Part shown: piece after piece, positions 5,061 to 46,375 of the stretch
Position numbering within the stretch: the stretch's first letter is position 1
Layout of the letters: each line of letters begins with the position of its first letter
Origin: Gluconacetobacter sacchari
GTDB lineage: Bacteria; Pseudomonadota; Alphaproteobacteria; Acetobacterales; Acetobacteraceae
NCBI RefSeq assembly: GCF_014174255.1
Contig: NZ_JABEQJ010000034.1
Location: 1 to 51,526 of the forward strand
DNA: 51,526 nt
Direction: 5' to 3'
Made by a program: the position numbers and the translations under genes
Notes under the pieces: generated by a model
Told to the model about the DNA's origin: nothing
What the model saw: the letters and a program-made list of their open reading frames with translations, nothing else
The model's database searches: none

Positions 5061-6386
5061 TCACCTGACCAACTTCCAGCATACGGAACCCGGCAATTTC
5101 AGGCCGGCCAGCAATGCCGCACTGGGCTTTGGCACGCGAGCCTGCATTGCCCGGTTTACCGACACAAGCCCCATATGTGGCGCATAACCAGCCGACCACT
5201 CGTAGCTATCAAGAAAAGACCAGTGGTAGTAACCCCGAATATCCACTCCATCCCGCCGGGCCCGTTCCAGAGCCGCGACGGCCGACCGGATGTAATGCTG
5301 CCGCTGTGCGTCGTCGTCCGTCGCGATGCCGTTTTCAGTCACGACCACGGGCAACCGCGCGACGGATGCAGCGTAACGACACGCCCCCTCCACACAATCG
5401 GGATAAAATTCCCACCCCATGGCCGTCTTTTCGGAAGATGCCGATGTCGGCACGATACCGGCCGGACCGATCAAATTGCGGGTATATACCTGAACACCGA
5501 CGAAATCGGCGCTCTCCCGCGCCGCGACCAGCCAGTTTTCATAAACATAACGCCGCTTCTCATCCCGGCGTCCGGGCGGCCCCACAGCCTGGTCGTCCGT
5601 CATCGCAAGCGTGACGCCCAGAGGATACTGTCCCGGTCCGGAGCGGATCACACCGATGGCACGCCGATGCGCCGCGATCATCCTGTCCTCGACGCGCTGC
5701 GGATCGCCGGATAGATAATAGCCGAACCGATCCGAACCACATTGCCGCGCGGCCTCGGACAACATGGCCTGCTTCCCCGCCGGCTCGCCCGGCCGGCCCC
5801 ACAACAGCAATTTGTGCAGATCCGGTTCGTTGAACGTTGCGGCGATCCCGATCAGGTCGCCCAACGCGCGCGATGTGACATCGCAATACCGCAGAAAACG
5901 GTCGACAGCGTCCCGCGCCTCCCAGCCTCCCTCGGCGGCAAACCAGGCCGGATTCGCAAAATGGCTGTACGTCACGCAGGGCACGAGATCGTGCTCGTGA
6001 CAGCACCGCAATACATCCCGATAATGTGCGAGGGCATCGCGAGAAATGACCCCCTTTTCCGGCTCGATGCGCGCCCACTCGAGCGAGAACCGGAAGGAGT
6101 TGAAGCCCAGCCACGCCAGCAGGGCGATATCCTCGCGATAACGCCGGTAATGGTCGTCCGCCAGGCCCGCCGGCTCCCGGAAAAGCGTGGACGGCACGCG
6201 TTCGAGAATCCGGATATCGGCCGCGCGTTCGTCGCCCTCCACCTGGTAGCCGCTCGAAGCCGCTCCCCAGAGAAAGGGCAGCGTCCTGCAAGGAGCGGCA
6301 AAAGCGGAACGGACCGGCCATGCCGTCGCGGCCGCCAGAACGGTGCGTCGCGTCACACGTGCCGCAGCAGAGTTACCAGACGTCAT
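5061..6386 (-). CDS. Exported GH1 beta-glycosidase
   Basis: A glycoside hydrolase family 1 enzyme of 441 aa, expected to remove beta-linked glucose or a related sugar from glycosides. Retaining-mechanism residues are present: the acid/base Glu187 in TFNEP and the nucleophile Glu351 in VTENG. The N-terminus carries a twin-arginine signal (TRRTVL at about 12-17, then an Ala-rich core ending near AFA at 28-30), so it should be folded in the cytoplasm and exported by Tat. Most bacterial GH1 enzymes are cytoplasmic, which makes this unusual. The ATG at 6386 is chosen because the signal follows it; the frame stays open 18 codons further. It lies 61 bp downstream of the TonB-dependent receptor, so the two probably form an operon for capture and deglycosylation of one compound. 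Confidence 0.88.
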   Translation of the reverse strand: MTSGNSAAARVTRRTVLAAATAWPVRSAFAAPCRTLPFLWGAASSGYQVEGDERAADIRILERVPSTLFREPAGLADDHYRRYREDIALLAWLGFNSFRFSLEWARIEPEKGVISRDALAHYRDVLRCCHEHDLVPCVTYSHFANPAWFAAEGGWEARDAVDRFLRYCDVTSRALGDLIGIAATFNEPDLHKLLLWGRPGEPAGKQAMLSEAARQCGSDRFGYYLSGDPQRVEDRMIAAHRRAIGVIRSGPGQYPLGVTLAMTDDQAVGPPGRRDEKRRYVYENWLVAARESADFVGVQVYTRNLIGPAGIVPTSASSEKTAMGWEFYPDCVEGACRYAASVARLPVVVTENGIATDDDAQRQHYIRSAVAALERARRDGVDIRGYYHWSFLDSYEWSAGYAPHMGLVSVNRAMQARVPKPSAALLAGLKLPGSVCWKLVR

Positions 6387-6447
6387 TTCATCTTCCACCC
6401 ATCCGTTTGCATCAACCCGCCCAGGAGACCGAACAGCCACAAATCAT

Positions 6448-8910
6448 TCAGAACCCGACACTGAAGGTTCCGATAAACGCACGCCCCGCGCCAAGAAAAT
6501 AGGTCGGTGCGCTCCCTGCGATCATGGTCCCATGCACGCCCCGCGTCGTATGCGCGGCACCCGTGACGGAATTCGCACCACTTATATAAGTCGATCCGGC
6601 GAGGTTTTGAATATTAAGCCTGAACTCAGGTTGCTTCATGAACGAAACATTATGAAACCGATACCCGAGGGTCAGATCCACATTGGCATGGGCGGGAATA
6701 GATTCGTCATCCATGAAGGTGGAATACTGGCTGTCCATATATTTCATGTTGACATTGCCGAACAGCGATCCGTCATCATAATTCAGACCTGCCGCCGCAC
6801 TCCATTTCGGCGCGCGAACCGCGATCTTTCCCGCTGTCGGCAGATAGTCCCTGCCGACCTGGAGGTTATTGTCGGTGGTGACGTGCAGATACTCACCCGA
6901 CATATAGGGCCGGAAGTGATGCCACGGACGGGTGCCGACCTCGACATCCACGCCACGCCCGGTTTCGCCGCCGGCATTGATGAACGTGTTGACCGACGCA
7001 CCATTGATGATGGCAGCGGTGGAGATCTGGCGATTGGTGAAATTGTAGTTGAAGAAGGAAACCGTCGCCATCACCTCGGACCCGGTATAGCGATAGCCGA
7101 TCTCCTCGGAAATCGAGAATTCGTTTTTCTGCTGATTGTTGCCGGCAATCAGCAGCGCACCCGTCGCGCCGTTATAGCTGTTGAACATCGAATTCGCGGT
7201 CGGCATACGGAACGCCGTGTTCCCACTGAAGAAAATCTGATGCTCCGGCGTGAACTGGTAGCGGAAGCCGAACTGCGGCGTGACCTGAAACGTGTTTTGA
7301 CCGACGTCGCTCTGGTCGCCCGGCAGATAATTGTATCCGGGACGATGAATCCAGAGCAGTTTTACCCCTGCATCCGCCATCAGCTTGTCGCCGAGCGCGT
7401 TGATCTCGTCGCCCAGATACAGCGCGTTGGTATAGGTGCGCGTGATCCAGTCCGTGGACATGTATTCCTGACCGTTCTTCAGCCGCGCATTCGTCGCGTA
7501 ATTGCCGAGAAGCGACGCAGGCGCGCCAGACGCCGTCACGGCGCCATAGGTCGTCGTATAGACCTGTCGCGTGTAATCGAACCAGTATCCGGCCTTGAGC
7601 GTGTTGATCCCCTTCTTCCAGGATACGACCGTATTCACGCCAGGATGTTCGATGTCGAACGTCGTCGGCACATTGACGATCCTCGCACTGCCATAAGTGG
7701 GCACGCCCGAAAGGTCGAGCGAGACATGCTGGCTGCCGTAGAACGCCTGGCCGCTGTTCGGAAGCGTGCTGCCATACGCGAAGCCACCCCAGGAATGATA
7801 TAGATAGGGCGTGACGTTTATCTTGACCGTATTGTGCAGCAGGCTGAGATCGGTCGGCGCGCTGACGATCAACGTCCCGGCGTCCTCGCCATGCAACTGG
7901 TAATAATTCGGGTTCGTTCCAGTGAAAACGTTGGAATAGTTGTAATTATTTCCATATTCTCGATACTGCGCGAGCGTCGGTGTGGTAAGCATGTATAGGC
8001 GGTAGTCGGTATAGGCGACCACGAGTTTCGACGCACCGACCGAACCCCAGTCCTTGACGAGCTTGAAGTCGAAGTGGTCGCGCCGGTAGGGCGCAGCCGG
8101 ACCACGCCAGTTCTTTCCGAGAAGATGCGAATAACTCAGGAAGAATTTTACGCCGGAATGCCCGAGTTCGCCGCTGTCGACCCGGAGGGACTGCCGGTAT
8201 GTGTCGTAAGACCCGAACGTCAGGTTCATCTGGCCGCCCGCCTTGTCCGCGGGATCGAGCAGGGTCATGCGCGTCAATCCGCCGGCGGCGCCGATCATCG
8301 GCGCAGTCAGGTCGACTGTCGTCGGTTGCAGGCTTTCGGACTGGATCACGTCTCCATCGGGATATTGCGATGGAATGGTCACGTAGGTGCCGACATTGTT
8401 GAGCGGCGCGCCTTCCATCAGGAAGCCGATCTCATCACCATTCAGGCCGCGCACGATGAAATTGCCGGATTGCATATTATAGGGGTCGGAGGTTGCCACA
8501 TTGGTGCCCGGGACCATCCGCATCACCTCGTAGGACGACGCGGTCGGCGATTGCGCAGCCACGAAATCGCGGGTGACTGTGCTGATGGCAACGGCGGAGG
8601 TCTGCTTCACCATTAGGCCGCCGCCAACATCCCGGCCGGTCACGCCACTCGGCGTCTGGTGAACGTGGGTGACGACGTCGATGGTCTCGCCACGCGCCGC
8701 GGGTTGCCGGGACGCAGCGCCGGCGACCGGTGTGGCGGCGACGCGGGAGGCGCCGACATGCGGAGTGGTCGGCCTTGCGGCGCCGGCCTGCACCTGCCGG
8801 CTCGTCGCATGCGCGGTACAGAGGGGAAGCGCCAGACACGTGCCGGCGAGAAGAAGCGCAGTGCCCGGCAACAAAGTCCGGGCAGGGCGGGGAAGCATGG
8901 AACGGATCAT
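6448..8910 (-). CDS. TonB-dependent outer-membrane receptor
   Basis: An outer-membrane, TonB-energised transporter of 820 aa. The start at 8910 has a GGAGG ribosome-binding site. It opens a signal peptide ending in an Ala-rich stretch after the LLLAGTCLALPL core. A TonB-box-like ETIDVV follows, then a plug domain (about 70-220), then a Tyr/Asn-rich beta-barrel ending in the canonical C-terminal Phe (FSVGF). The leader lacks a Fur box. With the downstream Tat-exported beta-glycosidase and the neighbouring oxygenase genes, this suggests import of a plant-type glycoside or aromatic compound rather than a siderophore. A strong promoter and candidate operator precede it. The same frame is open 40 codons further upstream, but that would run through the promoter. 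Confidence 0.9.
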   Translation of the reverse strand: MIRSMLPRPARTLLPGTALLLAGTCLALPLCTAHATSRQVQAGAARPTTPHVGASRVAATPVAGAASRQPAARGETIDVVTHVHQTPSGVTGRDVGGGLMVKQTSAVAISTVTRDFVAAQSPTASSYEVMRMVPGTNVATSDPYNMQSGNFIVRGLNGDEIGFLMEGAPLNNVGTYVTIPSQYPDGDVIQSESLQPTTVDLTAPMIGAAGGLTRMTLLDPADKAGGQMNLTFGSYDTYRQSLRVDSGELGHSGVKFFLSYSHLLGKNWRGPAAPYRRDHFDFKLVKDWGSVGASKLVVAYTDYRLYMLTTPTLAQYREYGNNYNYSNVFTGTNPNYYQLHGEDAGTLIVSAPTDLSLLHNTVKINVTPYLYHSWGGFAYGSTLPNSGQAFYGSQHVSLDLSGVPTYGSARIVNVPTTFDIEHPGVNTVVSWKKGINTLKAGYWFDYTRQVYTTTYGAVTASGAPASLLGNYATNARLKNGQEYMSTDWITRTYTNALYLGDEINALGDKLMADAGVKLLWIHRPGYNYLPGDQSDVGQNTFQVTPQFGFRYQFTPEHQIFFSGNTAFRMPTANSMFNSYNGATGALLIAGNNQQKNEFSISEEIGYRYTGSEVMATVSFFNYNFTNRQISTAAIINGASVNTFINAGGETGRGVDVEVGTRPWHHFRPYMSGEYLHVTTDNNLQVGRDYLPTAGKIAVRAPKWSAAAGLNYDDGSLFGNVNMKYMDSQYSTFMDDESIPAHANVDLTLGYRFHNVSFMKQPEFRLNIQNLAGSTYISGANSVTGAAHTTRGVHGTMIAGSAPTYFLGAGRAFIGTFSVGF

Positions 8911-8928
8911 TGGCGCCTCCGGCGAAGG

Positions 8929-9002
8929 GGTCACGGTGTGACCAAATACGGTCACATTGTCCAAAAATAGAATAAGATCGCGTCTCTGTTGTGTCAACGA
9001 AA
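8929..9002 (-). promoter_or_regulatory. TonB-receptor promoter with triple-arm operator
   Basis: On the minus strand TTGACA (complement of 8992-8997), a 17-bp spacer and TATTCT (complement of 8969-8974) form a near-consensus sigma70 promoter for the receptor gene. Immediately downstream, over the expected start site, the 6-mer GGTCAC/GTGACC occurs three times in alternating orientation: 8929-8934, 8938-8943 and 8950-8955. This creates one inverted repeat with a 3-bp spacer and one with a 6-bp spacer (7-bp arms if the flanking T/A pair is counted). The position fits a repressor site. IclR proteins encoded nearby are candidates, but no link is shown. Confidence 0.6.
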
Positions 9003-9059
9003 TGATCATGAAATCGCGCGAGCGCGACACGTCATCGCACTAAATTCATGCTCGGAACG

Positions 9060-9176
9060 ATGAATATTCTTCATGGAAAGGGGTCCGGACGGCAGCCGGT
9101 TCTGTCGGGGGCGGCCCCCGATCGCGTCGCAGTTCACGCCGCACGAACATAAAAATATAGAGTATTCTTCACTCTA
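9060..9176. promoter_or_regulatory. Two inverted repeats in the 362-bp receptor/reductase gap
   Basis: The gap 8911-9272 has no gene I can support. Besides the receptor promoter it holds ATGAA-tattc-TTCAT (9060-9074) and TAGAGT-attcttc-ACTCTA (9158-9176). Both contain the shared 8-mer TATTCTTC. They may be operators or RNA hairpins. A weaker CGTCGC/GCGACG stem (9200-9221) follows the reductase gene, without a T run. Confidence 0.3.
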
Positions 9177-9272
9177 CATCATCGTAACCGCCTGAATCGC
9201 GTCGCTCCGACAGTGGCGACGGCATAGGTCACGTTCCCGCACCATCATGGCCCGGCACGGGCAGCGGAAACT

Positions 9273-10220
9273 TCAGAGATCGAGTACCAGCCGGCCAGAC
9301 TGGCAGCGCGACACACAGATCATCATCGTCTTGTTGGCTACTTTTTCGCTTTTGCTCAGAACGCTGTCGCGATGCACCGGCTGTCCTGAAATGACCCGCG
9401 TCTCGCAACTGCCGCATACACCCTCGCGGCATGAAGACGTGACCGGCACCCCCGCGGCCTCGAGCACGTCGGCGATGCTCTTGTCGGGTGGAATCTCGAA
9501 AACCTTGCCTGATTTCGCGCATTCCACCTGAAAGCTGGCTTCGACCCCGGTAGCCTTCACCGGAGCCGCCGAAAAACGCTCGAGATGCACACGTGATTCA
9601 GGAAGATGCGCCGTGGCTTTTTCGAACGTGTCCAGCATGGGCGTTGGACCGCAGCAATAGAAATCCGCACCCGGATGCGCCTCGACAATCGAGGCGATGT
9701 CAAGATAGCCGCCTGCCTCGCTGTCGATATGAAACACGGGCTCACGGCTCAGGGCACGGATTTCATCGGCGAAGGAAAGGCAGGCATGGTCCCGCACCGC
9801 GTAATACAACTCCGGCCGATTCCCGAGCGCATGCAGACGTCGCATCATGGACAGGATCGGCGTAATGCCGATGCCGCCGGCGATGAACACATGATCGTTC
9901 GTCGTCTCATCAAGCGAAAAATGATTACGCGGCCGGCCGATCTCGAACTCCGCGCCGATCCGCAAGGTTTCGTGGATATAGCGCGAGCCGCCGCGGCTGT
10001 TCGCATCGTGCGCCACCCCCACGACGTAACGGTGCGTTTCCGCCGGGTCGTTACTCAGCGAATAGCTGCGCGTGATACCGTTCGCAAGGAAGAGGTCGAT
10101 GTGGCTACCGGCGGTAAATGGCGGCAACGGCCCGCCATCCAGCGCACGGAGTTCCAGGGAGACCACATCGCGGGCCTCCCATTTCAGCACCGACGCGCGC
10201 ACGCGCATCGTGTCAGCCAT
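9273..10220 (-). CDS. Rieske oxygenase reductase component, VanB-type
   Basis: A PDR/VanB-type reductase of 315 aa that passes electrons from NAD(P)H through flavin and a 2Fe-2S centre to the adjacent oxygenase. Domains in order: flavin-binding barrel with RSYSLSN at 51-57, pyridine-nucleotide domain with GGIGITP at 115-121 and CCGPTPM at about 190, then a C-terminal plant-type ferredoxin domain with Cys265, Cys270, Cys273 and Cys303. Its start overlaps the end of the oxygenase gene by 8 bp, so the two are translationally coupled. The arrangement matches two-component demethylases and hydroxylases such as vanillate demethylase. The substrate is not deducible. Confidence 0.92.
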   Translation of the reverse strand: MADTMRVRASVLKWEARDVVSLELRALDGGPLPPFTAGSHIDLFLANGITRSYSLSNDPAETHRYVVGVAHDANSRGGSRYIHETLRIGAEFEIGRPRNHFSLDETTNDHVFIAGGIGITPILSMMRRLHALGNRPELYYAVRDHACLSFADEIRALSREPVFHIDSEAGGYLDIASIVEAHPGADFYCCGPTPMLDTFEKATAHLPESRVHLERFSAAPVKATGVEASFQVECAKSGKVFEIPPDKSIADVLEAAGVPVTSSCREGVCGSCETRVISGQPVHRDSVLSKSEKVANKTMMICVSRCQSGRLVLDL

Positions 10221-11229
10221 TGGCCAGTTCCTCGAGTTGCGTCTCCGCGCAGCGCTTGAGATACCGGCGCAGCCGCACCAGCCCCGCGTCGTGCTGATAG
10301 AGAATTTCGCGCTCGTTCGCGCCAGGTTCGTAATCCTCGATCAGGACGCGATCCTGTTCGAGAACATGCCAGTGGCGAGCTTCGAGGCGGTTGCGATACA
10401 GGAAGCGCCATGCATCGCGCTGCCAGCCCGTGACTTTGCGCAGCCGCCAGTGAAAGACCCCGCTCCATCCGTCCTGCATCGGCGTGTAGGAGCCAAGAAT
10501 CGTGAAGCTTCCGCCAGGGCCGCCGGTTTTCGGATAAGGGATCTCCAGGCGCAGCCACATGGACCCGATATCGAGAAATTCCGTCCAGTCGAAATTGACG
10601 CCGCGCTGTCCCTCTTTCTCGAAGATAAAGCCGTCATCCGTCTCGACAATGCGGAAATCGGCGGTGGAATCGCCTTCCGACATGGAATGGGAATGGTGAT
10701 GCAGGAACGTGCCGTGCATCGGGTCCATGACGTTGTCGATCACATAACGGTAATCGCCGCCCCACTCGGTATAACAGAGGAAGTGGCTGTAGTCGGGATC
10801 GCTGAATTCCGCCGGAAGGCGCAGTTCCGTCGGCGGCGTATCCTTCGTCTCGCCGACGAAGAGGAAGATCGCGCCCGCATGCTCCTCCAGAGGAAAGCTG
10901 CGGGTGGCATGCAGGCCTTCCAGACGGCAGCCCGGGCTGCCCGGCACCTTCACGGCGACACCCCGCGCATCCACCTGCACGCCATGATACGGGCAGGCGA
11001 TCCGGTCGCCCAGCGGCGCACCCTGGGAAAGCGGGGCGCCACGATGCGGGCAGTGATCCTCCAGGGCATACGCGTTCCCCAGATGGTCGCGCCACAGCAC
11101 GATGCGAAACCCGCAGCGATAGATCGATGTCGGGGTGGTGGTCACATGGCCCGAAGGCAGAACGGGATACCACTGGTTGCGCAGGCCGCGACGAAGGCGG
11201 GTTTCCAGTGATTCCGGAGAGATGGTCAT
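10213..11229 (-). CDS. Rieske non-heme iron oxygenase, VanA-like
   Basis: The catalytic subunit, 338 aa, of a two-component aromatic-ring oxygenase or O-demethylase. The Rieske 2Fe-2S ligands are Cys60, His62, Cys79 and His82. The mononuclear iron site is the segment around Asp165/Asp169, His172 and His177, with a His-rich run just after it. Length and the lack of a beta subunit place it with VanA-type monooxygenases rather than large-subunit dioxygenases. It overlaps its reductase by 8 bp and lies 39 bp downstream of a small HTH gene, giving a three-gene operon behind the 11547-11582 promoter. Hydroxylation or demethylation of an imported aromatic is the likely role. Confidence 0.92.
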   Translation of the reverse strand: MTISPESLETRLRRGLRNQWYPVLPSGHVTTTPTSIYRCGFRIVLWRDHLGNAYALEDHCPHRGAPLSQGAPLGDRIACPYHGVQVDARGVAVKVPGSPGCRLEGLHATRSFPLEEHAGAIFLFVGETKDTPPTELRLPAEFSDPDYSHFLCYTEWGGDYRYVIDNVMDPMHGTFLHHHSHSMSEGDSTADFRIVETDDGFIFEKEGQRGVNFDWTEFLDIGSMWLRLEIPYPKTGGPGGSFTILGSYTPMQDGWSGVFHWRLRKVTGWQRDAWRFLYRNRLEARHWHVLEQDRVLIEDYEPGANEREILYQHDAGLVRLRRYLKRCAETQLEELANG

Positions 11230-11268
11230 GGCAGATATCCTGTGGACGAAGCGGAGGGAGGGCTTGTT

Positions 11269-11499
11269 TCAGGCGGCCAGGCGCGCCAGTTCCGCGGCCA
11301 GGGAGGCTTCGGACCAGGCGCCGCCGTCGGGTGCGGGGATATCGCGTTCGACCAGCACCGGAAGAATGCCGCCCAGCGTCGTGGCCCCCCGCGCGAAGGC
11401 TGCCTCCAGGGCATCCCCGATCAGATTTTCATAGGGGTCCGGCTCCCGGCAGCGGGTCTGATGGGTCTCGTTATAAGGAATAAAGGGCTTCTTCATCAT
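11269..11499 (-). CDS. Small recombinase-like helix-turn-helix protein
   Basis: A 76-aa soluble protein at the head of the Rieske operon, with a GGAGAA ribosome-binding site. It has PYENLIGDALEAAF in the first half and a C-terminal IPAPDGGAWSE segment. That resembles the small proteins annotated as recombinase-like helix-turn-helix domain proteins, and the C-terminal pattern recalls the recombinase domain of serine recombinases. It is far too short to be an enzyme. From memory such proteins recur next to Rieske oxygenases, but their role is not established. It could be a regulator or an accessory factor for oxygenase assembly. Confidence 0.65.
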   Translation of the reverse strand: MMKKPFIPYNETHQTRCREPDPYENLIGDALEAAFARGATTLGGILPVLVERDIPAPDGGAWSEASLAAELARLAA

Positions 11500-11546
11500 G
11501 TATTCTCCGAAACGAGGATCATGCCGGCCGCCTGCTCAGGCTCTGT

Positions 11547-11582
11547 TCATATATGGTCAATATGAGCATGTGTGAACACATG
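11547..11582. promoter_or_regulatory. Divergent promoter with inverted repeats
   Basis: Between the Rieske operon (minus) and an IclR gene (plus). On the minus strand TTCACA (complement of 11571-11576), 17 bp, then TATATG (complement of 11548-11553) form a likely promoter. A perfect 7-2-7 inverted repeat CATGTGT-GA-ACACATG (11567-11582) covers the -35. A second one, TCATAT and ATATGA with a 7-bp spacer (11547-11552, 11560-11565), covers the -10. This is a plausible operator for the adjacent IclR regulator. Confidence 0.55.
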
Positions 11583-11677
11583 TTACGAGATCGGAAGAGA
11601 AAATCAAGTAACATAACGTCCGCAATGCAGACGCCGACGCTTCCGTTCTTGTGAAAAACCGGCTTAAGGTCGTACGC

Positions 11678-12490
11678 ATGACGCAGGACACCATACAGAC
11701 GCACGAAGACGGTCCGACCGGCGAGGATCGCTACATTGTTCCGGGGCTGCTTCGCGGGCTCGCCATTCTCGAAAGCTTTACGAAAGATCACCCGGAACGG
11801 AGCCTGGCCGTCATCGCGCGAGAGGCCGGATTGCCGCGCGCCACCGCCTTCCGCCTGCTCCATACGCTGGAGACGGCAGGGTATGTCGAGCGCAACGCGG
11901 CGCGCAGGACGTTCCGCCTCGGCAACCGGGTCCTCAGGCTGGGCTACAACACCCTGTCCGGGCGCGGACTTGTGGACATCGCCACGCCGGTTCTCGAACG
12001 GCTGCGCGACGCGACGGGATGCACCACGCATCTCGTCGTCCTCGCCGGGACCGATGTCGTCTATGTGGTCCGCTGCCCGGGACCGGGCTGGACCAGCAAT
12101 GCCGTCGGTGTCGGAACGCGCCTGCCGGCTCATGCCACCGTCATCGGTCGCACGCTTCTGGCCCACATGGCACTGGCCGATGTTGTCCGCCTGTATGACG
12201 GGTACGCGTTCTCGACCTATACCGATGCCACGCCCGGCGATCTCGGTGCCCTGGTCGCGCAGCTCGAGGTGGACCGTCCGCAGAGAAGCCTTGCCAGCTG
12301 GGGATATTTCGAACCCGACGTGGCCAGCATTGCCGCGCCCATACGCAATCGCGTCGGCATCGCGGAAGCCGCGGTCAACGCGATCTGCCCGCTCTCGGCC
12401 TATGACCGCGCGGAACTGGAGGATGTCGTGCGCATTCGCGTCGAGGCGGCCGCCGCCGAAATCTCCGCTGCCCTCGGCTATCAGCCCTAG
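11678..12490 (+). CDS. IclR-family transcriptional regulator (first)
   Basis: A 270-aa regulator with an N-terminal winged helix-turn-helix (about residues 22-85, including the LAVIAREAGLPRATAFRLLH recognition region) and a C-terminal IclR effector-binding domain. Local regulators of this family usually sense an aromatic or small organic acid. The ATG at 11678 has AAGG upstream; a GTG at 11651 is in frame. It is transcribed divergently from the Rieske operon across a promoter with two inverted repeats, the usual arrangement for a local regulator that also controls itself. Its 3-prime end faces the alpha/beta hydrolase gene, 77 bp away. Confidence 0.9.
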   Translation: MTQDTIQTHEDGPTGEDRYIVPGLLRGLAILESFTKDHPERSLAVIAREAGLPRATAFRLLHTLETAGYVERNAARRTFRLGNRVLRLGYNTLSGRGLVDIATPVLERLRDATGCTTHLVVLAGTDVVYVVRCPGPGWTSNAVGVGTRLPAHATVIGRTLLAHMALADVVRLYDGYAFSTYTDATPGDLGALVAQLEVDRPQRSLASWGYFEPDVASIAAPIRNRVGIAEAAVNAICPLSAYDRAELEDVVRIRVEAAAAEISAALGYQP

Positions 12491-12567
12491 CGACGCATCG
12501 AAGCCCGGCCGGCCAGGCGTGCAGGTGGCGCCCCTTGCGGGCCGTTCGCGCTCATTTGCCCACATGG

Positions 12568-14529: not shown

Positions 14530-14557
14530 TCATATATAAAACACGAAGGAGCCCGCC

Positions 14558-15502: not shown

Positions 15503-15517
15503 GTATCGGCCGCCTCC

Positions 15518-15557
15518 CGCCCCCGGGTCCGGCGGCCCGTCCGGGGGCGGCGGTTTT
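15518..15557 (+). terminator. Intrinsic terminator of the VOC gene
   Basis: Arms CGCCCCCGG (15518-15526) and CCGGGGGCG (15541-15549) with a 14-nt loop that is itself GC-rich, followed by TTTT at 15554-15557. It lies between the convergent VOC and MFS genes. Confidence 0.65.
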
Positions 15558-15574
15558 ATCGCGCAGCCGGCCGC

Positions 15575-16807: not shown

Positions 16808-16858
16808 GATGCTCTCCCTCTGCCTGACGCGGCGGCGCGCTGGCGCGCACGGTCGGCT

Positions 16859-16935
16859 TGTTCTGTCAACGAAACACATTTGACACAAGCATCGGCATCG
16901 AGTAAACCAAATAAGGATCATGTGATCATATTTGG
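16859..16935. promoter_or_regulatory. Divergent promoter region with 29-bp inverted repeat
   Basis: Between the MFS (minus) and SDR operon (plus). Positions 16907-16935 form an imperfect palindrome: outer arms CCAAATA and TATTTGG, core GATCA-TG-TGATC. A rightward TTGACA (16880-16885) stands 17 bp before a weak -10 (TAAACC), placing the palindrome over the start site. On the minus strand the 16-mer at 16859-16874 includes TTGACA and differs at one base from the -35 region of the TonB receptor (8987-9002). Likely operator for one of the IclR proteins, probably the one in this operon. Confidence 0.6.
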
Positions 16936-17016
16936 ACAAATGATCGAACCCGAACGGATCGACGAACCGGTGGAACAGGGTTCTTCCGGTCAGCACAGCA
17001 AGGAGTGTCCATATCC

Positions 17017-17793
17017 ATGCCGTTCGAGAATGTCCCCGATCCCGGCGCGCTCGCCGGTCGTCGTATCGTCATTACAGGCGCCGCGCGAGGATTGGGCGAG
17101 GCGATCGCACGCGCCTGCGCCGCGATGGGCGCCACCCTGTGGCTTGCCGATATCCTGGACGGTGCGGGACGCAGGACGGCCGAGACCATCGCCGGGGATT
17201 TCGGAAAGCCCGTTCATTTCAGCCAGGTCGATCTTTCCGACGCCGATTCGATCGCGGCATTCGGATGCGCCGTGCGCGACATGTGGGGCGAGACCGACGG
17301 ATTGGTCAATAACGGCGCTATCGCCACCAATGTCGGTGGCAAACGCTTCGAGGAAATCGATATCGGCCTGTGGGACCGTGTCCAGCGGGTGAATGTGCGC
17401 GGCACATGGCTGATGACGCGCGCGCTCAGCCCGCTATTTTCCCGGCGCGCCAGGATAGTCAATCTCGCGTCCGACACCGCTCTCTGGGGGGCGCCGAACC
17501 TGCTCGCCTATACCGCGAGCAAGGGGGCGGTCATCGCCATGACCCGGTCGCTCTCGCGCGAACTCGGGCCGCGCGGGATCGGCATCGCGGCGGTCGCGCC
17601 TGGCATCGTGAGAACGGAGGCCACGGAATACGTCCCGAAGCAGCGGCACGACCTTTACGAGAACGGGCGTGCCGTTCCCGGCCCGCAGGACCCGGACGAT
17701 ATTGTCGGAGTCGTCGGCTTCCTGTTGACTGACTATGCCCTTGCATTGACCGGCCAGGTGCTGCCGGTCAATGCAGGCTTCGTGTTCACCTGA
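17017..17793 (+). CDS. Short-chain dehydrogenase/reductase
   Basis: A classical SDR of 258 aa that oxidises or reduces a hydroxyl/keto group with NAD(P). It has the cofactor motif TGAARGLG near residue 24, the NNGA segment near 90, a serine in NLASDT near 150, and the YTASK motif near 167, so the catalytic tetrad is intact. The ATG at 17017 is preceded by AAGGAG at ideal spacing; an in-frame GTG at 17005 overlaps that site. First gene of a six-gene rightward operon (SDR, IclR, SDR, ThDP enzyme, aspartate-dehydrogenase-like, aldehyde dehydrogenase) with short or overlapping junctions. Confidence 0.9.
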   Translation: MPFENVPDPGALAGRRIVITGAARGLGEAIARACAAMGATLWLADILDGAGRRTAETIAGDFGKPVHFSQVDLSDADSIAAFGCAVRDMWGETDGLVNNGAIATNVGGKRFEEIDIGLWDRVQRVNVRGTWLMTRALSPLFSRRARIVNLASDTALWGAPNLLAYTASKGAVIAMTRSLSRELGPRGIGIAAVAPGIVRTEATEYVPKQRHDLYENGRAVPGPQDPDDIVGVVGFLLTDYALALTGQVLPVNAGFVFT

Positions 17794-17816
17794 AACAAGA
17801 CGGGAAGGCAGACGGC

Positions 17817-18647
17817 ATGTCAGAGTCCGACGACGACGCAAAAGACGAGGGCAACGGATATGTGTCGCCGCCGGTGCAGCGCGCGGCCCGGCTGCTTCGC
17901 TATATCGGCGACGGCGGTTCGCTCGCCAACGTCAAGGCCGCGGCGGCGGCTCTGGGCATCAGCCGGACGACGCTGCTGCGTCTCCTCCATACGCTGGAGA
18001 TGGAGCGATTCATCGAGCGCGCCCGCGATGGTGAATACCAGATCGGAATCGGCCTTGTCGGCCTGGTGGGCGAAAGCGCCTTCGGCCAGGGGCTGGTCCG
18101 GATCGCCCTGCCCATCGTGGCGAATCTCGCCGAAAAATCGGGCCTGTCTGCACATCTGGGCGTCCTCGACGGGCGCGAGGCCGTCTATCTCGCCCGCCGC
18201 GTGCCCAATGTACCGCTGGCCAGCAACATCTCCGTCGGTTCGCGCGTCGGCGCTCACGCCACGACGCTCGGCCGCGCCATTCTCGCCTGGCTCGACCCGG
18301 AGGACGTGCGGGCTCTGTACGAGAATTGTCCGCTCGGCCAGTATACCGACCGCACGCCCGCGTCATGGAAGACCCTGAGCGAGACGCTGAAACGCGAGCG
18401 GGAAACGGGATACTCGGAAAGCGATGGCCTGTATTCCGACGGTGTCAGTTCCATCGCGGCCCCCGTGTTCGACGAGTCGGGACGTCCCATCGCATCCGTC
18501 AATGTCTCCGGTCCCACGCCGCTTTTCGAGACGGAGGGTGGACGTCGCGCATATATCGCCGATCTCGTCACGGACGCGGCTCGCCAGATCTCGGTGCGGC
18601 TCGGCTGGCGCGCGACGGTCATGACCCACACCCGGACCGCGTCATAG
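17817..18647 (+). CDS. IclR-family transcriptional regulator (second)
   Basis: A 276-aa IclR protein: N-terminal winged HTH at about residues 20-80, with ALGISRTTLLRLLHTLE as the recognition region, and a C-terminal GAF-like effector domain. It is encoded inside the operon, 23 bp after the first SDR and 10 bp before the second, so it is co-transcribed with the enzymes and probably autoregulated through the palindrome at 16907-16935. It resembles the first IclR (11678) in length and fold, but the sequences differ clearly, so I see no recent duplication. Confidence 0.9.
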   Translation: MSESDDDAKDEGNGYVSPPVQRAARLLRYIGDGGSLANVKAAAAALGISRTTLLRLLHTLEMERFIERARDGEYQIGIGLVGLVGESAFGQGLVRIALPIVANLAEKSGLSAHLGVLDGREAVYLARRVPNVPLASNISVGSRVGAHATTLGRAILAWLDPEDVRALYENCPLGQYTDRTPASWKTLSETLKRERETGYSESDGLYSDGVSSIAAPVFDESGRPIASVNVSGPTPLFETEGGRRAYIADLVTDAARQISVRLGWRATVMTHTRTAS

Positions 18648-18657
18648 GAGAATCGAG

Positions 18658-19440
18658 ATGGATCTGGGGCTACGCGGGAAAATGGCTGTCGTCACCGGAG
18701 GAAGTTCGGGAATCGGGCTTGCCGCCGCCCGCGTTCTCCTGGACGAAGGCATGGCCGTCGCCATCTGCGGACGCAATGCCGAACGGCTGGACGCGGCACG
18801 GCAGTCGCTGGCCCCGCACGGTGATGTCCTCGCCGTGCAATGCGATATTCTGGAGGCGGGAGACGTCGAGCGCCTGCGCCGCGATGTCGCCGGATGGCAG
18901 GGGCGCTGCGACCTGCTAGTCAACAATGCCGGCCAGGGGCGCGTCTCGACCTTCGCCGAGACGACGGACGAGGCCTGGAGCGAGGAGCTGAGGCTGAAAT
19001 TCTTCAGTCAGATCCATACGATCCGTGCCTTCGGGCCTATGCTGCGCCAATCGGGGCAGGGTGCGATCGTCGCCGTGAATTCGCTGCTCGCCTACCAGCC
19101 CGAACCGCATATGGTCTGCACCTCGGCGGCCAGGGCCGGCGTGCAGAACATGCTGAAATCCCTCGCCGGAGAGTTCGCCCCCGACATCCGGGTCAACGCC
19201 GTCGTCGTCGGCCTGATCGAATCCGGCCAGTGGGAACGCCGCTTTCAGGCTCGGGAAGATCGCGGAATCACCCGTGCCGAATGGCTCGCGGATCTCGGCA
19301 GGGAAAAGAATATCCCGATGAAAAGACTCGGACGTCCGGAAGAGGTGGCCAACGCCATCGCCTTTCTCGGCTCGCCAGCCTCCGCCTTTATCACCGGTAG
19401 CCAGATCGAAGTGTCCGGCGGCCTCTCCAGACATATCTGA
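18658..19440 (+). CDS. SDR-family protein lacking the YxxxK motif
   Basis: A 260-aa protein with the SDR Rossmann fold: TGGSSGIG near residue 13, NNAGQG near 90, and a C-terminal segment (ITGSQIEVSGG) typical of the family. Where YxxxK is expected it reads CTSAARAG, so both the Tyr and the Lys are missing. The local pattern TSAARAG also occurs, from memory, in a divergent SDR subgroup. The product may use different chemistry, such as dehydration or isomerisation, or may be a non-catalytic binding protein. AGGAG precedes the start. Third gene of the rightward operon. Confidence 0.85.
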   Translation: MDLGLRGKMAVVTGGSSGIGLAAARVLLDEGMAVAICGRNAERLDAARQSLAPHGDVLAVQCDILEAGDVERLRRDVAGWQGRCDLLVNNAGQGRVSTFAETTDEAWSEELRLKFFSQIHTIRAFGPMLRQSGQGAIVAVNSLLAYQPEPHMVCTSAARAGVQNMLKSLAGEFAPDIRVNAVVVGLIESGQWERRFQAREDRGITRAEWLADLGREKNIPMKRLGRPEEVANAIAFLGSPASAFITGSQIEVSGGLSRHI

Positions 19441-19450
19441 CGGATCAACC

Positions 19451-21154
19451 ATGACTGACTCTCTATTGGATCACGCCGCTCCCAGCGATACCGCCGCGCG
19501 GACCATGCCGGTCGGAGACCTCGTGGCGGCATGGCTCGCCGAAACGGGCGTGAAAGTCGTCTTCGGCGTCATCTCGATCCATAACATGCCCATCCTTGAC
19601 GCCATCGCCCGCCAGGGCCGCCTCCGCTTCGTACCCGCCCGGGGCGAAGCCGGCGCCATGAACATGGCCGACGCCTATGCCCGTACGACGTGCGGCCTGG
19701 GTGTCGTCATCACCAGCACCGGCACCGCCGCGGGCAATGCCGCCGGCAGCCAGGTCGAGGCTTTGACCGCCTGCTCCCCGGTGTTGCATATCACCACCCA
19801 GATCGACCGGCCCTTCATCGACCGCGACCGCGCGCCCATCCACGACGTTCCGCGCCAGCCGGAAATGCTGCGTGGTGTTTCCAAGGCGGTCCTGCGTGCC
19901 TGGTCGGCGGCCTCGGTCGTTACCACGCTCGCCGCAGGCGCGTCCGCCGCCCTTTCCGCTCCCTCGGGGCCCGTGGCCGTCGAAATTCCCATCGACGTGC
20001 AGCGGGAGTCGGCCATCGTTCCCCGCATCTGGCCTAAGCCGCTGACATCCCGCGTGCAGCCCGACGACGCAGCGCTCGACGACCTCGCCGCGATGCTGCG
20101 CTCCGCCCGCCGTCCCGTCTTCTGGTTCGGCGGCGGCGCGCGCGGCGCGGCCGCGCAGGCCGCCGAACTGGTGCGCCGGGGCGTCGCCGCCGTCACCAGC
20201 ACCAACGGGCGCGCCACCGTGCCCGAAGATTCGCCATCCTCGCTGGGCGCGTTCAACATGACGCCGAAAGCCCAGGCCCTGTATGACAGCGCCGATCTCA
20301 CCGTCATCGTTGGCTCCCGACTGCGCGGAAACGAGACGCGCAACAACGAAATGCGACTTGGCAAGACCGTCGTGCAGATCGACGCCGATGCAAGCCAGGG
20401 CGCACGCAACTATCCCGTCGACCTGTTCATCCACGGCGACGCGGCCGAAATTCTCCAGGCCATCCTGGACAGGATTCCGGACGCGCTGCCGACAGACAGC
20501 CGTCTCTGCGCGGACGTGACGGCGGCGCGCGAAAGCGGCGAAGCCGACCTGCGCGATACGCTCGGCCCCTATGCCGTCATCGCCGAGACCCTGCGCGACG
20601 TGGTCTTCCAGCGTCGCCTCGCCTTCGTGCGCGACGTCACCATCTCCAACTCCACCTTCGGCAACCGTTACGTCCGGCTCGCGGCGCCCAATCTCGGCGT
20701 ACATGCGCTTGGCGGCGGAATCGGCCAGGGTATCGCGATGGCGATCGGTGCCGCCATGTCCGGCGCGGCCCCGCGCACCATCGCCCTGGTCGGCGACGGC
20801 GGCGCCATGCTCTATGTCGGCGAACTGACGACGGCGGTCGAAGAAAAGGCCGATATCGTCTTCATCCTGATGAACGACCGTGGATATGGCGTCATCCGCA
20901 ACATCCAGGACGCACAGTACCAAGGCCGTCATCACTACACGCTGGACGCGATCCCGGATTTCGGAAAGCTCGCCGAAGCCATGAATCTGCCCCACCGGCG
21001 GATCTCCGACATCGACGCCTTCCCCGCGGCACTCGCCTCGGCTCTGGATGCCTCCGGCCCGATCATGCTTGAAATCGACATGATCGCCATCGGCCCCTTC
21101 GCCCGCAGCTTCGCGGGTCCGCCGGCGGGTGCGGCGGGAAAGCCGACGACATGA
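19451..21154 (+). CDS. Thiamine-diphosphate-dependent enzyme, decarboxylase/acetolactate-synthase-like
   Basis: A 567-aa ThDP enzyme with the three-domain layout of 2-oxoacid decarboxylases. The activating glutamate lies in ARGEAGAMNMADAY near residue 60. The central domain spans about 200-340. The ThDP/Mg motif begins GDGGAMLY near 455 and ends at MND about 28 residues later. Likely chemistry is decarboxylation of a 2-oxo acid to an aldehyde, or carboligation. An aldehyde dehydrogenase two genes downstream supports decarboxylation followed by oxidation. The stop overlaps the next start (ATGA at 21151-21154). Benzoylformate decarboxylase-like activity is possible, but the sequence cannot decide. 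Confidence 0.85.
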   Translation: MTDSLLDHAAPSDTAARTMPVGDLVAAWLAETGVKVVFGVISIHNMPILDAIARQGRLRFVPARGEAGAMNMADAYARTTCGLGVVITSTGTAAGNAAGSQVEALTACSPVLHITTQIDRPFIDRDRAPIHDVPRQPEMLRGVSKAVLRAWSAASVVTTLAAGASAALSAPSGPVAVEIPIDVQRESAIVPRIWPKPLTSRVQPDDAALDDLAAMLRSARRPVFWFGGGARGAAAQAAELVRRGVAAVTSTNGRATVPEDSPSSLGAFNMTPKAQALYDSADLTVIVGSRLRGNETRNNEMRLGKTVVQIDADASQGARNYPVDLFIHGDAAEILQAILDRIPDALPTDSRLCADVTAARESGEADLRDTLGPYAVIAETLRDVVFQRRLAFVRDVTISNSTFGNRYVRLAAPNLGVHALGGGIGQGIAMAIGAAMSGAAPRTIALVGDGGAMLYVGELTTAVEEKADIVFILMNDRGYGVIRNIQDAQYQGRHHYTLDAIPDFGKLAEAMNLPHRRISDIDAFPAALASALDASGPIMLEIDMIAIGPFARSFAGPPAGAAGKPTT

Positions 21155-21972
21155 TCGCGCCAACCATCGATCTCGGACTGATAGGCTGCGGATCGATGGC
21201 CGCAACCGTCATCCGCGCCATCCAGACCGCGGGCATCACACTCTCTTCGGTCGCAATTCTCACCCGCCCCGACCGCGCCGCGGACCCGGCGCAGATCGCG
21301 GTCCGCCTCGGCCTGCGGCCCGAATGCGTCAGGATCGTGGGCGACGCCGCCGGCCTTGTCGCCCTCGCGCCGCGCATCGTCGCGGAATGCGCGTCGCAGG
21401 ACGCCGTCCGGGCAGCCGTGCCGCCTCTCCTCGCCGCCGGGATCGAGACCGTGATCGCCTCGGTCGGCGCCCTTGCCGACGCCGACACCCTACGCGCTCT
21501 GTGCGCGCGGGACACCAGCGCACTGCGGATCGCGACCGGGGCCGTCGGCGGCATGGATGCGCTGGCCGCCGCCCGGCTGTCGGGTCTGGCCGAGGTCACG
21601 TATGTCGGGCGCAAGCCGCCGGCCTCCTGGCCGGGCGGCGGCACGGGCCATGCGGTGATTTTCGAGGGAACGGCCCGCGAAGCCGCCCTGAAATTCCCGA
21701 AAAACGCCAACGTCGCCGCCACGGTCGCCTTCGCCGGTCTTGGATTGGATGCGACAGAAGTGCGCCTCGTCGCCGACCCGGGGTGCATGCACAACGTGCA
21801 TGAAATCTCATTCTCTGCCGGATGCGCAAAAGGTTTTTTCAGAATGGAGGGCCTGCCGTCGCCAGACAATCCCCGAACGTCCCTCACCGCGGGCTTCAGT
21901 GTCGCGCGCTGCGTTCTGGACAGCCTCAGGCCCGGTCCGCATTTCTCGTCCCCGGACCTGATGCCCGCATGA
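21151..21972 (+). CDS. Aspartate-dehydrogenase-like (NadX family) oxidoreductase
   Basis: A 273-aa protein with an N-terminal Rossmann segment GLIGCGSMA (residues 9-17) and the C-terminal pattern FPKNANVAATVAFAG ... DPGCMHNVHEIS, characteristic of L-aspartate dehydrogenase (NadX). In that family the His near the NVHEI motif is catalytic. NadX makes iminoaspartate for NAD synthesis or acts in aspartate turnover. Here no nadA or nadC is adjacent, and the gene is locked between a ThDP enzyme and an aldehyde dehydrogenase by ATGA overlaps at both ends. A role on another amino or imino acid, or a carbonyl intermediate of the pathway, is therefore likely. Confidence 0.8.
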   Translation: MIAPTIDLGLIGCGSMAATVIRAIQTAGITLSSVAILTRPDRAADPAQIAVRLGLRPECVRIVGDAAGLVALAPRIVAECASQDAVRAAVPPLLAAGIETVIASVGALADADTLRALCARDTSALRIATGAVGGMDALAAARLSGLAEVTYVGRKPPASWPGGGTGHAVIFEGTAREAALKFPKNANVAATVAFAGLGLDATEVRLVADPGCMHNVHEISFSAGCAKGFFRMEGLPSPDNPRTSLTAGFSVARCVLDSLRPGPHFSSPDLMPA

Positions 21973-23516
21973 TACCCGGCCCGGTCCCCTCGCAAGGAAA
22001 CATGCCGATGCCCGTTCCCGACCCGGGGTTCACTCCCGACGACCTGCCCGACGGTCGTATCTTCCTGGCGGGCACATTCCGCGAAGGACGAGGCACGGAA
22101 ATCGAATCCCGCTTCCCCGCCGACGGCAGCCTCAATCGCGTCATGCGCGAGGCAGGAGAGCAGGATGTGGCGGACGCGATCGCGGCGGCGCGGAAAGCGC
22201 AGCAAGACCATGCCTGGCGCGATCTCCTGGCGCATCAGCGCGCGGACTATCTCTACAGGATTGCCCACGGCCTGGCCGCGAACGCCGATCGCATCGCCTA
22301 TATCCAGAGCCGCGACACCGGAAAGACCCTGAAGGAGACACGCGCGCTCGCCATGAGCGCCGCCGGAACCTTCCGCTACTTCGCCGCCGCGCTGGAGACG
22401 ATGGAAGAAGCGATCACCCCCTCGCGGGGGCCGTGGATGACATTGTCGCGCTTCGAACCCATCGGCCTTGTCGCCGCCATCACGCCCTGGAACTCCCCGA
22501 TCGCCAGCGACGCCCAGAAGGTCGCGCCGGCTCTCGCGGCGGGCAACGCGGTGATCCTCAAACCGGCAAGCTGGAGTCCGCTGGTCGGGCTGGAATTCGC
22601 CCGCATCGTGGCGGAGGCCGGCTTGCCCCCCGGGCTGCTTTCCGTGCTGCCCGGCGGGGGACAGTCGGTCGGCGACAGGCTGGTGAACGACCCGGCCATC
22701 GGGCGCATTTCCTTTACCGGCGGCACGAAGGTCGGCCACGCCATCGCCAGCAACGCCGCGAAACGGCTCATCCCCGTGTCGCTGGAACTCGGCGGCAAAT
22801 CCCCCACCATCGTCCTGCCCGACGCCGATCTCGACCAGGCGCTGGCCGGCATTCTCTATGGCATGTTCTCATCGTCGGGACAGTCCTGCATCGCCGGCTC
22901 GCGTCTCTTCATCCATCGCTCGCTCTATCACGATTTTCTCGAACGCCTGGTCGCCGCCACCCGCGCCCTGAAAGTCGGCCATCCCTTCGATCCGCAAACC
23001 CAGGTCGCCCCGCTGATCCACCCCGATCACGTCGCGAATGTCGACCGTTGGGTCGATATCGCCCGCGCGGAGGGCGGCCGCGTCCTCGCCGGGGGCCATC
23101 GGCCGAAGGGTGCGTCGTGGGACGACGGATATTATTATCTGCCGACGATCATCGACAAGGTGACCAACGAGGCCGCCATCTGCCGCGAGGAAGTCTTCGG
23201 TCCCGTCCTCGTCGCGATGCCCTTCGATACGGAAGAGGACGTCATCCGCATGGCCAATGACAGCCAGTATGGCCTTGCCTGCGGCGTCTGGACCCGTGAC
23301 GTCACCCGCGCCCTCGCCATCGGACGCGCCATCACCGCCGGAACGGTCTGGATCAATACCTATAAGCAGTTTTCCATTTCCACGCCCTTCGGCGCGGACA
23401 AGGAAAGCGGCGCGGGCCGCGAGAAGGGACTGGACGGCCTGCGCACCTACATGCGTCAGAAATCCTATTACATGGACACGTCGCACCATGTGATTCCGTG
23501 GGCAAACGCAGGCTGA
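21969..23516 (+). CDS. Aldehyde dehydrogenase
   Basis: An NAD(P)-dependent aldehyde dehydrogenase of up to 515 aa that oxidises an aldehyde to the acid. Visible motifs: ITPWNSP near residue 170, the catalytic Glu in LELGGKSP, the nucleophile Cys in SSGQSCIAGSR, and EEVFGPV further on. The ATG at 21969 overlaps the previous stop (ATGA). The ATG at 22002, preceded by AAGGA, may be the real start. Last gene of the rightward operon, followed by a strong hairpin. Together with the ThDP enzyme it would convert a 2-oxo acid to the next shorter carboxylic acid. Confidence 0.93.
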   Translation: MIPGPVPSQGNMPMPVPDPGFTPDDLPDGRIFLAGTFREGRGTEIESRFPADGSLNRVMREAGEQDVADAIAAARKAQQDHAWRDLLAHQRADYLYRIAHGLAANADRIAYIQSRDTGKTLKETRALAMSAAGTFRYFAAALETMEEAITPSRGPWMTLSRFEPIGLVAAITPWNSPIASDAQKVAPALAAGNAVILKPASWSPLVGLEFARIVAEAGLPPGLLSVLPGGGQSVGDRLVNDPAIGRISFTGGTKVGHAIASNAAKRLIPVSLELGGKSPTIVLPDADLDQALAGILYGMFSSSGQSCIAGSRLFIHRSLYHDFLERLVAATRALKVGHPFDPQTQVAPLIHPDHVANVDRWVDIARAEGGRVLAGGHRPKGASWDDGYYYLPTIIDKVTNEAAICREEVFGPVLVAMPFDTEEDVIRMANDSQYGLACGVWTRDVTRALAIGRAITAGTVWINTYKQFSISTPFGADKESGAGREKGLDGLRTYMRQKSYYMDTSHHVIPWANAG

Positions 23517-23534
23517 ACAGAACACCGGGCGCCT

Positions 23535-46358: not shown

Positions 46359-46375
46359 GAGGCGGCCTGGCGCGC

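Follow-up and report, generated by a model that had tools for sequence, protein, structure and literature searches.

The 51,526-nucleotide stretch of Gluconacetobacter sacchari DNA analysed here (contig NZ_JABEQJ010000034.1, ‘the window’) contains, at positions 5061–23516, an island of 16 protein genes that is an acquired insertion and a conserved catabolic regulon, ordinary in kind. As to its substrate, we see about even chances that the island was gained horizontally as a co-regulated unit for breaking down an aromatic acid that contains nitrogen. The likeliest such acid is kynurenate (4-hydroxyquinoline-2-carboxylate) or a relative such as xanthurenate, perhaps also in the form of a glycoside. 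It is a more tentative proposal, held with rather less than even confidence, that the conserved cluster may supply the genes for the aerobic quinoline pathway of tryptophan (catabolism of kynurenate and xanthurenate), to which this host joins a TonB-dependent receptor and an exported beta-glycosidase for the glycosylated forms of these acids.

Gene content and layout

Genes were counted within the island from family profile matches and open reading frames (ORFs). Features are listed with short-chain dehydrogenase/reductase abbreviated to SDR, thiamine diphosphate to ThDP and aldehyde dehydrogenase to ALDH; sizes are in amino acids (aa).

5061–6386, minus strand: GH1 beta-glycosidase, 441 aa from ATG, 3′ of the TonB gene on the same strand; Pfam GH1 match of 189.9 bits
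6448–8910, minus strand: TonB-dependent outer-membrane receptor, 820 aa from ATG; plug and beta-barrel
9273–10220, minus strand: NAD(P)H reductase with C-terminal 2Fe-2S domain, putative VanB-like electron donor for the Rieske oxygenase; Fer2 and NAD_binding_1 matches
10213–11229, minus strand: Rieske oxygenase alpha subunit, VanA_C type, 338 aa; proposed kynurenate 7,8-dioxygenase
11269–11499, minus strand: HTH_62 (‘recombinase-like HTH’) protein, 76 aa, upstream of the Rieske gene; PF20552 match of 80.3 bits
11678–12490, plus strand: IclR regulator 2 (IclR2), PcaR/PcaU-like (below cut-off)
12568–13386, minus strand: alpha/beta hydrolase with Ser-Asp-His triad; proposed C–C or amide hydrolase
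13407–14396, minus strand: two-domain cupin, first domain with HxH...E
14558–15502, plus strand: VOC extradiol dioxygenase with His153, His211 and Glu262; proposed 7,8-dihydroxykynurenate 8,8a-dioxygenase
15575–16807, minus strand: MFS permease; closest to models of sugar-acid and aromatic-acid symporters, in each case below cut-off
17005–17793, plus strand: SDR1 with Ser-Tyr-Lys; proposed dihydrodiol dehydrogenase
17817–18647, plus strand: IclR regulator 1 (IclR1)
18658–19440, plus strand: SDR2, PRK07062 family (over cut-off), without the usual Tyr/Lys; proposed C=C reductase
19451–21154, plus strand: ThDP-dependent enzyme, PRK07064 family (over cut-off); proposed 2-oxo acid decarboxylase
21151–21972, plus strand: NadX-type L-aspartate dehydrogenase; proposed substrate aminofumarate/iminosuccinate
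21969–23516, plus strand: ALDH; nearest models HpaE and BADH, below cut-off
23536–23568: inverted repeat after the ALDH gene, 12-nt perfect arms (23536–23547 and 23557–23568), no T-run

Profile matches bore out the gene families named in an earlier note on this DNA (GH1, TonB, Rieske system, cupin, VOC, hydrolase, MFS, ThDP, ALDH and two IclR regulators). That note had put the number of genes at seventeen rather than 16; two further ORFs, 11519–12571 and 14462–14839, both on the minus strand, matched no family; the first runs antisense to IclR2 and the second to the beginning of the VOC gene. Of the hairpins that it had placed on either side of the island, the right one stands as the 12-nt perfect repeat listed above and the left one does not, the repeat there being weak (9 nt, 89%, 5051–5059/5062–5070); a terminator scan listed neither. 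Likely starts are 8910 for the TonB gene, 6386 for GH1, 16807 for MFS and 21969 for ALDH; the longest ORF for TonB begins at 9030, upstream of a palindrome described below.

Units are arranged divergently. IclR2 diverges from the minus-strand run of GH1, TonB receptor, reductase, Rieske oxygenase and HTH_62 protein; the hydrolase and cupin genes (minus) diverge from the VOC gene (plus); and the MFS gene (minus) diverges from SDR1-IclR1-SDR2-ThDP-NadX-ALDH (plus). Neither 2-hydroxypentadienoate hydratase nor 4-hydroxy-2-oxovalerate aldolase families were represented among the 16 genes, nor, by family matches, was an initial FAD monooxygenase of the type found in the naringenin (fde) and isoflavone (ifc) clusters. 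A PF00848 profile search of the host genome gave four matches, all at other loci and none at the island.

Insertion into the chromosome

Similarity between the window and stretches from six same-genus relatives ends at 4673–4776 and restarts at 23621–23668, leaving about 18.8 kb extra in this strain.

4777–23620: approximate extent of the insertion, between dbpA (3008–4774, plus strand) and the conserved right flank

Among 14 same-genus genomes (the host's own included), in which each flank gene was found in 13, dbpA and the glucan glycosyltransferase gene of the right flank are near neighbours, lying 2.6–7.9 kb apart on one contig in 12 relatives as against 20.8 kb here. The latter gene, whose match is to a Pfam glycosyltransferase only, we take to be opgH. 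A ThDP gene over the family cut-off was present in 1/14 of these genomes, the host's own (0/13 relatives). Third-position GC (guanine plus cytosine) content is 0.70–0.75 in GH1, TonB, reductase and Rieske genes and 0.76–0.83 in the other island enzymes, compared with 0.92 and 0.89 in the two flank genes.

Within the genus (L145–L150) the interval on the dbpA side varies: it is 0.2–0.4 kb in three relatives, and three more carry approximately 1.9–2.0 kb of different sequence there. Elsewhere in the window, GC content falls to 0.54–0.56 at 46001–50000, compared with 0.66–0.71 at 24001–46000, possibly marking another acquired block.

Conservation of the core cluster

Relatives of the island ThDP enzyme (E 1e-75 or better) were found in 15/398 genomes sampled phylum-wide (the host's own included), in 158/299 genomes of one family (that of G394, perhaps Burkholderiaceae) and in 26/250 of another (that of G516). 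A core of Rieske oxygenase, HTH_62 protein, SDR1, VOC dioxygenase, alpha/beta hydrolase, cupin, SDR2, ThDP enzyme, NadX, ALDH and IclR is common to Alpha-, Beta- and Gammaproteobacteria. Presence of each gene was scored by comparison with the window proteins in 65 loci (stretches of >4800 bases with a ThDP match of >60 bits, from a subset of the genomes with relatives): NadX was present in 65, the hydrolase in 63, IclR in 62, ALDH in 60, SDR1, VOC and cupin in 59 each, SDR2 in 57, Rieske in 53 and HTH_62 in 48, some of the misses being due to contig ends or shortened stretches. Eight loci had been selected via NadX (L043–L046, L082, L084–L086) and the others via ThDP or cupin; NadX was present in all 57 of the latter too. 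Left out before the count were L037 and L038, which hold cupin and IclR (L038 is cut off by its contig), L071, a 4.4-kb contig with ThDP, L083 and L087 (NadX paralogue, no cluster), L136, flank stretches L092–L104, L106, L125, and short loci. Our own gene caller favoured antisense ORFs; its counts were set aside, and it served only to point to RidA, porin and MFS genes.

Named carriers are Acetobacter lovaniensis and Asaia astilbis, plasmids of Nitratireductor, Paracoccus and Pseudosulfitobacter, Novosphingobium resinovorum pSA2, Burkholderia cenocepacia (unannotated record), Caballeronia, Vibrio nigripulchritudo and Acinetobacter baumannii. In none of seven annotated cluster records is a substrate given for the cluster genes. 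Gene order is reshuffled from lineage to lineage, and the peripheral functions differ: a VanB-like reductase is present in 30/65 loci and a separate ferredoxin in 13, and uptake systems include an ABC binding protein (25), porin (23), MFS permease (12) and TonB receptor (3). The clusters of Nitratireductor pOM-1, Paracoccus sp. MA, Pseudosulfitobacter, Burkholderia, Caballeronia and A. baumannii share the core genes of the island, but have an ABC transporter, MFS permease or porin in place of TonB and GH1, and a ferredoxin and/or FAD reductase or flavodoxin in place of the VanB-like reductase; moreover, the Beta- and Gammaproteobacterial clusters examined have a one-domain cupin rather than the two-domain form.

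Separate occurrence of the genes in relatives, which the earlier note had named as an argument against a single route, was mostly not seen. The exceptions were Roseomonas mucosa (L037, ±10 kb), with cupin and IclR and no other cluster genes, the NadX paralogues of L083 and L087, and L107, with SDR2, ThDP, NadX and ALDH only. Of the genes for which that note had suggested a neighbourhood search, Rieske, cupin, NadX and ThDP do occur together, unlike TonB and GH1. Variants without a Rieske gene and relying solely on a flavin hydroxylase were considered and dropped, as neighbouring stretches of the genomes concerned (G347, G377, G477) hold Rieske, SDR1 and cupin; among the variants considered, only the Vibrio plasmid stretch L046 has none within its 24.8 kb.

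Several features of individual loci may be recorded. The HTH_62 protein is usually encoded just upstream of the Rieske gene or of its ABC transporter; despite what may be a misleading family name, the protein could be an oxygenase accessory. The ThDP gene of the V. nigripulchritudo plasmid is annotated as two adjacent coding sequences (L046:10314–11988). In two genomes (L079, L114) ThDP-ALDH is separated by some kb from a second block made up of NadX, an IclR, hydrolase and cupin, and L114 has two one-domain cupins. Immediately upstream of the cluster hydrolase in G347 lies a phenol 2-monooxygenase-like gene (L070:4899–6863; PRK08294, over cut-off), possibly an alternative entry enzyme.

Catalytic residues and a candidate route

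To judge from alignments, the catalytic residues of the island enzymes are largely intact. The Rieske Cys/His cluster and Asp/His iron ligands are kept in 52/53 loci (the remaining one is cut at the locus end), and the protein, which scores 43.5 bits against VanA_C (cut-off 23.5) and is accompanied here by a VanB-like reductase, has SxtDIOX/SxtT and dicamba demethylase as nearest solved relatives. In the VOC protein, which resembles HpaD below cut-off, His153 is conserved in 59/59 loci and His211 and Glu262 in 58/59 (one not covered). Conservation was similar for the hydrolase triad (Ser 62/63, Asp 63/63, His 62/63), SDR1 Ser-Tyr-Lys (59/59), ThDP Glu66 (65/65), ALDH Cys and Glu (59/60, one not covered) and the first-domain HxH...E of the cupin (58/58). 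SDR2 has Thr/Ser and Arg in place of the SDR Tyr and Lys in 57/62 loci; in the five cases with Tyr/Lys, the search may have drawn in other SDRs.

In the classical Pseudomonas quinoline pathway, kynurenate is converted through a dihydrodiol to a catechol, and then by extradiol cleavage, reduction, decarboxylation and aldehyde oxidation to 5-(2-carboxyethyl)-4,6-dihydroxypicolinate; its enzymes include EC 1.14.99.2, 1.3.1.18 and 1.13.11.10. The earlier note had matched the gene set to no named pathway. We infer that this one fits by activities: a Rieske oxygenase with intact SDR1 and a VOC protein with full iron ligands fits dihydroxylation, dehydrogenation and extradiol cleavage, and the presence of ThDP and ALDH genes without the hydratase and aldolase of the meta pathway suits a 2-oxo acid route. 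We know of no gene assignment for the quinoline pathway, and none for its enzymes was found among the matches listed in open-licensed PMC full text.

On this basis, the TonB receptor would import the compound, the exported GH1 would strip the sugar if present and the MFS permease would take up the acid. Rieske oxygenase and reductase would form the 7,8-dihydrodiol and SDR1 the catechol, which the VOC enzyme would cleave at the ring junction to give a pyridine with a 3-carboxy-3-oxopropenyl side chain. SDR2 would then reduce the double bond, the ThDP enzyme would remove CO2 from the 2-oxo acid and ALDH would produce 5-(2-carboxyethyl)-4,6-dihydroxypicolinate, the intermediates to this point being those of the Pseudomonas pathway. 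For the remainder we propose that hydrolase and cupin might open the pyridinone and split C4–C5, giving glutarate and 2-aminofumarate (C5 + C4), the iminosuccinate tautomer of which NadX would reduce to L-aspartate; alternatively RidA, where present, would hydrolyse iminosuccinate to oxaloacetate. Gene content, catalytic residues, the conserved core, the insertion and the shared palindromes are seen in the sequences themselves; the substrates of all steps, the order of those from SDR2 to cupin, and the GH1 and TonB ligands are inferred. An FAD hydroxylase is encoded in 12/65 loci (nearest models 3-hydroxybenzoate 6-monooxygenase, urate and salicylate hydroxylases, all below cut-off) and could fit a route from an 8-hydroxy analogue.

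The catalytic half of NadX aligns with two L-aspartate dehydrogenases of solved structure, 2dc1 and TM1643, and His217, Asn185 and Asn240 are present in 65/65 loci. A gene for RidA, of the enamine/imine deaminase family, lies immediately 3′ of the Rieske gene in nine loci from three families (L082, L084, L111, L113, L122, L127, L133, L135, L137; this leaves aside a tenth, partial one where L107 ends), and the host genome has ten RidA-family matches, none of them in the island. The presence of NadX in all loci and of RidA in nine points to an enamine or imine intermediate, which makes a plain phenol an improbable aglycone and favours a nitrogen heteroaromatic acid over the generic phenolic glycoside implied by the earlier note's ‘glycosylated aromatic compound’. 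The combination of ThDP, ALDH and NadX with RidA likewise points to an aromatic acid whose breakdown yields an amino-dicarboxylate.

Regulation and the glycosidase as an apparent add-on

Two palindromes recur upstream of island units and in related clusters.

8939–8954: type A palindrome, before TonB-GH1, 3′ of the −10 element of a promoter-like site
11544–11559: type A palindrome, between HTH_62-Rieske-reductase and IclR2
16923–16938: type A palindrome, between MFS and SDR1 (the SDR1-to-ALDH unit)
14526–14543: type B palindrome, between the cupin and VOC genes

All three sites in the window that match the type A palindrome TGACCATATATGGTCA with ≤3 mismatches lie upstream of island units; 0.05 were expected, and as many were reached in 0/100 shuffles, a chance value that is partly circular and too favourable given that the consensus was built from sites in the host, A. 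lovaniensis and Asaia genomes. The promoter-like site before TonB comprises TTGACA from 8997 and TATTCT ending at 8969, separated by 17 nt (six such sites in the scan, 3.8 in shuffles). In A. lovaniensis, type A sites precede SDR1 and Rieske, and a variant found by eye precedes TonB; in Asaia they precede SDR1 and TonB, which lies at the opposite end of the cluster, with a weaker site of four mismatches on the Rieske side that is absent from the pattern scan list. The type B palindrome TGTTTCATATATAAAACA is identical in A. lovaniensis, on the opposite strand, and one with four changes occurs in Asaia. An initial operator pattern was set aside; two of the sites it describes had served to derive it.

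The two IclR regulators and two palindromes would fit a single regulon in which the ring-cleavage unit is tuned separately, and sharing of the type A palindrome by the TonB-GH1 unit with the Rieske and SDR1 upstream regions supports one regulon. GH1 carries a leader with RRTVLAA that can be read as a Tat signal, as the earlier note had proposed, and has both catalytic motifs (TFNEP and VTENG); its solved relatives are beta-glucosidases. It is taken from its position to be co-transcribed with TonB, and, with intact motifs on the same strand 3′ of TonB behind the shared palindrome, probably belongs to the regulon in this strain. That note's picture of one co-regulated route is supported by the shared palindrome (left part, right part and TonB-GH1) and by the conserved core. 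GH1 and TonB are not supported as parts of the conserved pathway: relatives of GH1 occur in 1/65 loci (A. lovaniensis, broken) and TonB receptors in 3, and the Asaia stretch ends inside TonB and so covers no GH1 position beyond it. A. lovaniensis DSM 4491 (NZ_JACHIE010000026, L035) otherwise resembles the island in core synteny, TonB receptor and both palindrome types, but its GH1 remnant sits before TonB rather than after it. In N. resinovorum pSA2, a TonB receptor and a GH3 glycosidase lie between the SDR and ThDP genes of the cluster (L044:6068–10293). With GH1 broken in one carrier and a different glycosidase in another, glycoside use looks like an add-on to a core acting on the free acid. 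Xanthurenate glucosides exist.

Discussion

In the proposed reading, the island shares with the Pseudomonas quinoline pathway dihydroxylation of the ring, dehydrogenation of the dihydrodiol, extradiol cleavage, decarboxylation of a 2-oxo acid, oxidation of the aldehyde and entry of nitrogen into an amino acid, and differs from it in the addition of TonB, GH1 and MFS and in a host without tryptophan 2,3-dioxygenase (TDO). TDO was found in 67/78 genomes (11/19 and 56/59 in two sets), namely the host's own plus 77 in which ThDP or NadX had matched; no TDO match was found in the host genome, which would thus scavenge the compound, as its uptake genes suggest. One TDO gene, approximately 10 kb from the cluster in G347, was not counted as support, since it is set apart from the cluster by genes for kynureninase, a radical SAM protein and sugar-acid functions. 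The A. baumannii genes A1S_0956–0958 (aspartate dehydrogenase, aldehyde dehydrogenase and acetolactate synthase), which are probably that species' copy of the cluster, are reported to rise approximately 2.2- to 2.4-fold on mucin (PMC5757984), a result neutral with regard to kynurenate.

A number of observations weigh against kynurenate. Reduction of a C=C bond by an SDR-type enzyme and the ring opening are guesses. The Rieske protein falls in the VanA_C group, which holds many O- or N-demethylases; Lys184 of NadX is kept in only 57/65 loci and its His214 is not conserved; and the fourth cupin ligand, His155, is found in only 8/58. The A. lovaniensis GH1 (L035:14587–16000) is a pseudogene with several stops and frame changes, adjoining a TonB gene that closely matches the window receptor. 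TDO adjoins the cluster in 1/66 comparable genomes (G991, as convergent neighbour of the reductase gene, in itself a point in favour; G822 was excluded as its ThDP position is not listed), which is near chance, and no kynurenine aminotransferase is annotated in the seven annotated stretches, no aimed search having been made. A similar Pseudomonas aeruginosa cluster (PA3501–3514), for which locus-tag searches gave nothing, would, if real, count on the same side: P. aeruginosa cultures are reported to accumulate kynurenate (PMC4938989).

An unlikely alternative to kynurenate is a plant phenolic glycoside, from which GH1 would free a phenolic ether or flavonoid-like aglycone, a VanAB-like Rieske enzyme would demethylate it to a catechol, VOC would cleave this and hydrolase and ALDH would finish, with NadX having another specificity. 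As in VanAB vanillate O-demethylase, a VanA_C oxygenase is paired with a VanB-like reductase, and dicamba demethylase is among the nearest solved relatives; ALDH and VOC resemble HpaE and HpaD below cut-off; and a glycosidase accompanies a TonB receptor both here, behind a shared palindrome, and in the GH3 arrangement of pSA2. Demethylation would, however, call for no dihydrodiol dehydrogenase, and SDR1, a putative one, accompanies the cluster with full catalytic residues in 59/65 loci; the universal NadX and the nine RidA genes also speak against a phenolic substrate, and relatives of the window GH1 or the Novosphingobium GH3, the only two glycosidases searched, occur in one locus each. The ifc and fde clusters do share a VOC/glyoxalase-type dioxygenase, alpha/beta hydrolase and cupins with the island, but their early step is a flavin hydroxylase, and the main text of the source, whose gene table is in a figure, names no Rieske oxygenase, thiamine enzyme or aspartate dehydrogenase in the part available (PMC11069340). 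No FdeE-type flavin hydroxylase is encoded in the window. The hydratase and aldolase of a classical meta-cleavage pathway are, as noted, not among the island genes.

We judge it similarly improbable that the same chemistry serves another nitrogen heteroaromatic or an amino-acid-conjugated aromatic, such as another quinoline carboxylate or an N-acyl aspartate. NadX and RidA indicate only an aspartate- or aminofumarate-like unit, and the varied uptake systems (MFS, ABC, porin, TonB) would permit a family of related substrates; kynurenate, on the other hand, explains the series Rieske-SDR-VOC-ThDP-ALDH-NadX step by step, and no second compound known to us would call on every one of these enzymes. 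That the island comprises two unrelated neighbouring pathways, an aromatic one on the left and a 2-oxo acid or amino acid one on the right, seems very improbable. Shuffled gene order, the four-gene L107, and the second block of NadX, IclR, hydrolase and cupin some kb from ThDP in G335 and G962 would be in line with such a division, but most of the 65 loci hold both parts (Rieske 53, VOC 59), which share palindromes here.

Enzymes of the quinoline pathway have been known for decades without known genes. Were the kynurenate route correct, three orphan enzymes would gain genes, genome sequences would allow one to predict which bacteria remove the host signalling molecule kynurenate, and the role of flower- and insect-associated acetic acid bacteria in the turnover of tryptophan-derived compounds would become testable. 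Should the substrate not be kynurenate, the cluster would still represent a common pathway, as the frequency of its ThDP marker in one family of the phylum (158/299) shows, and one seemingly ending in aspartate.

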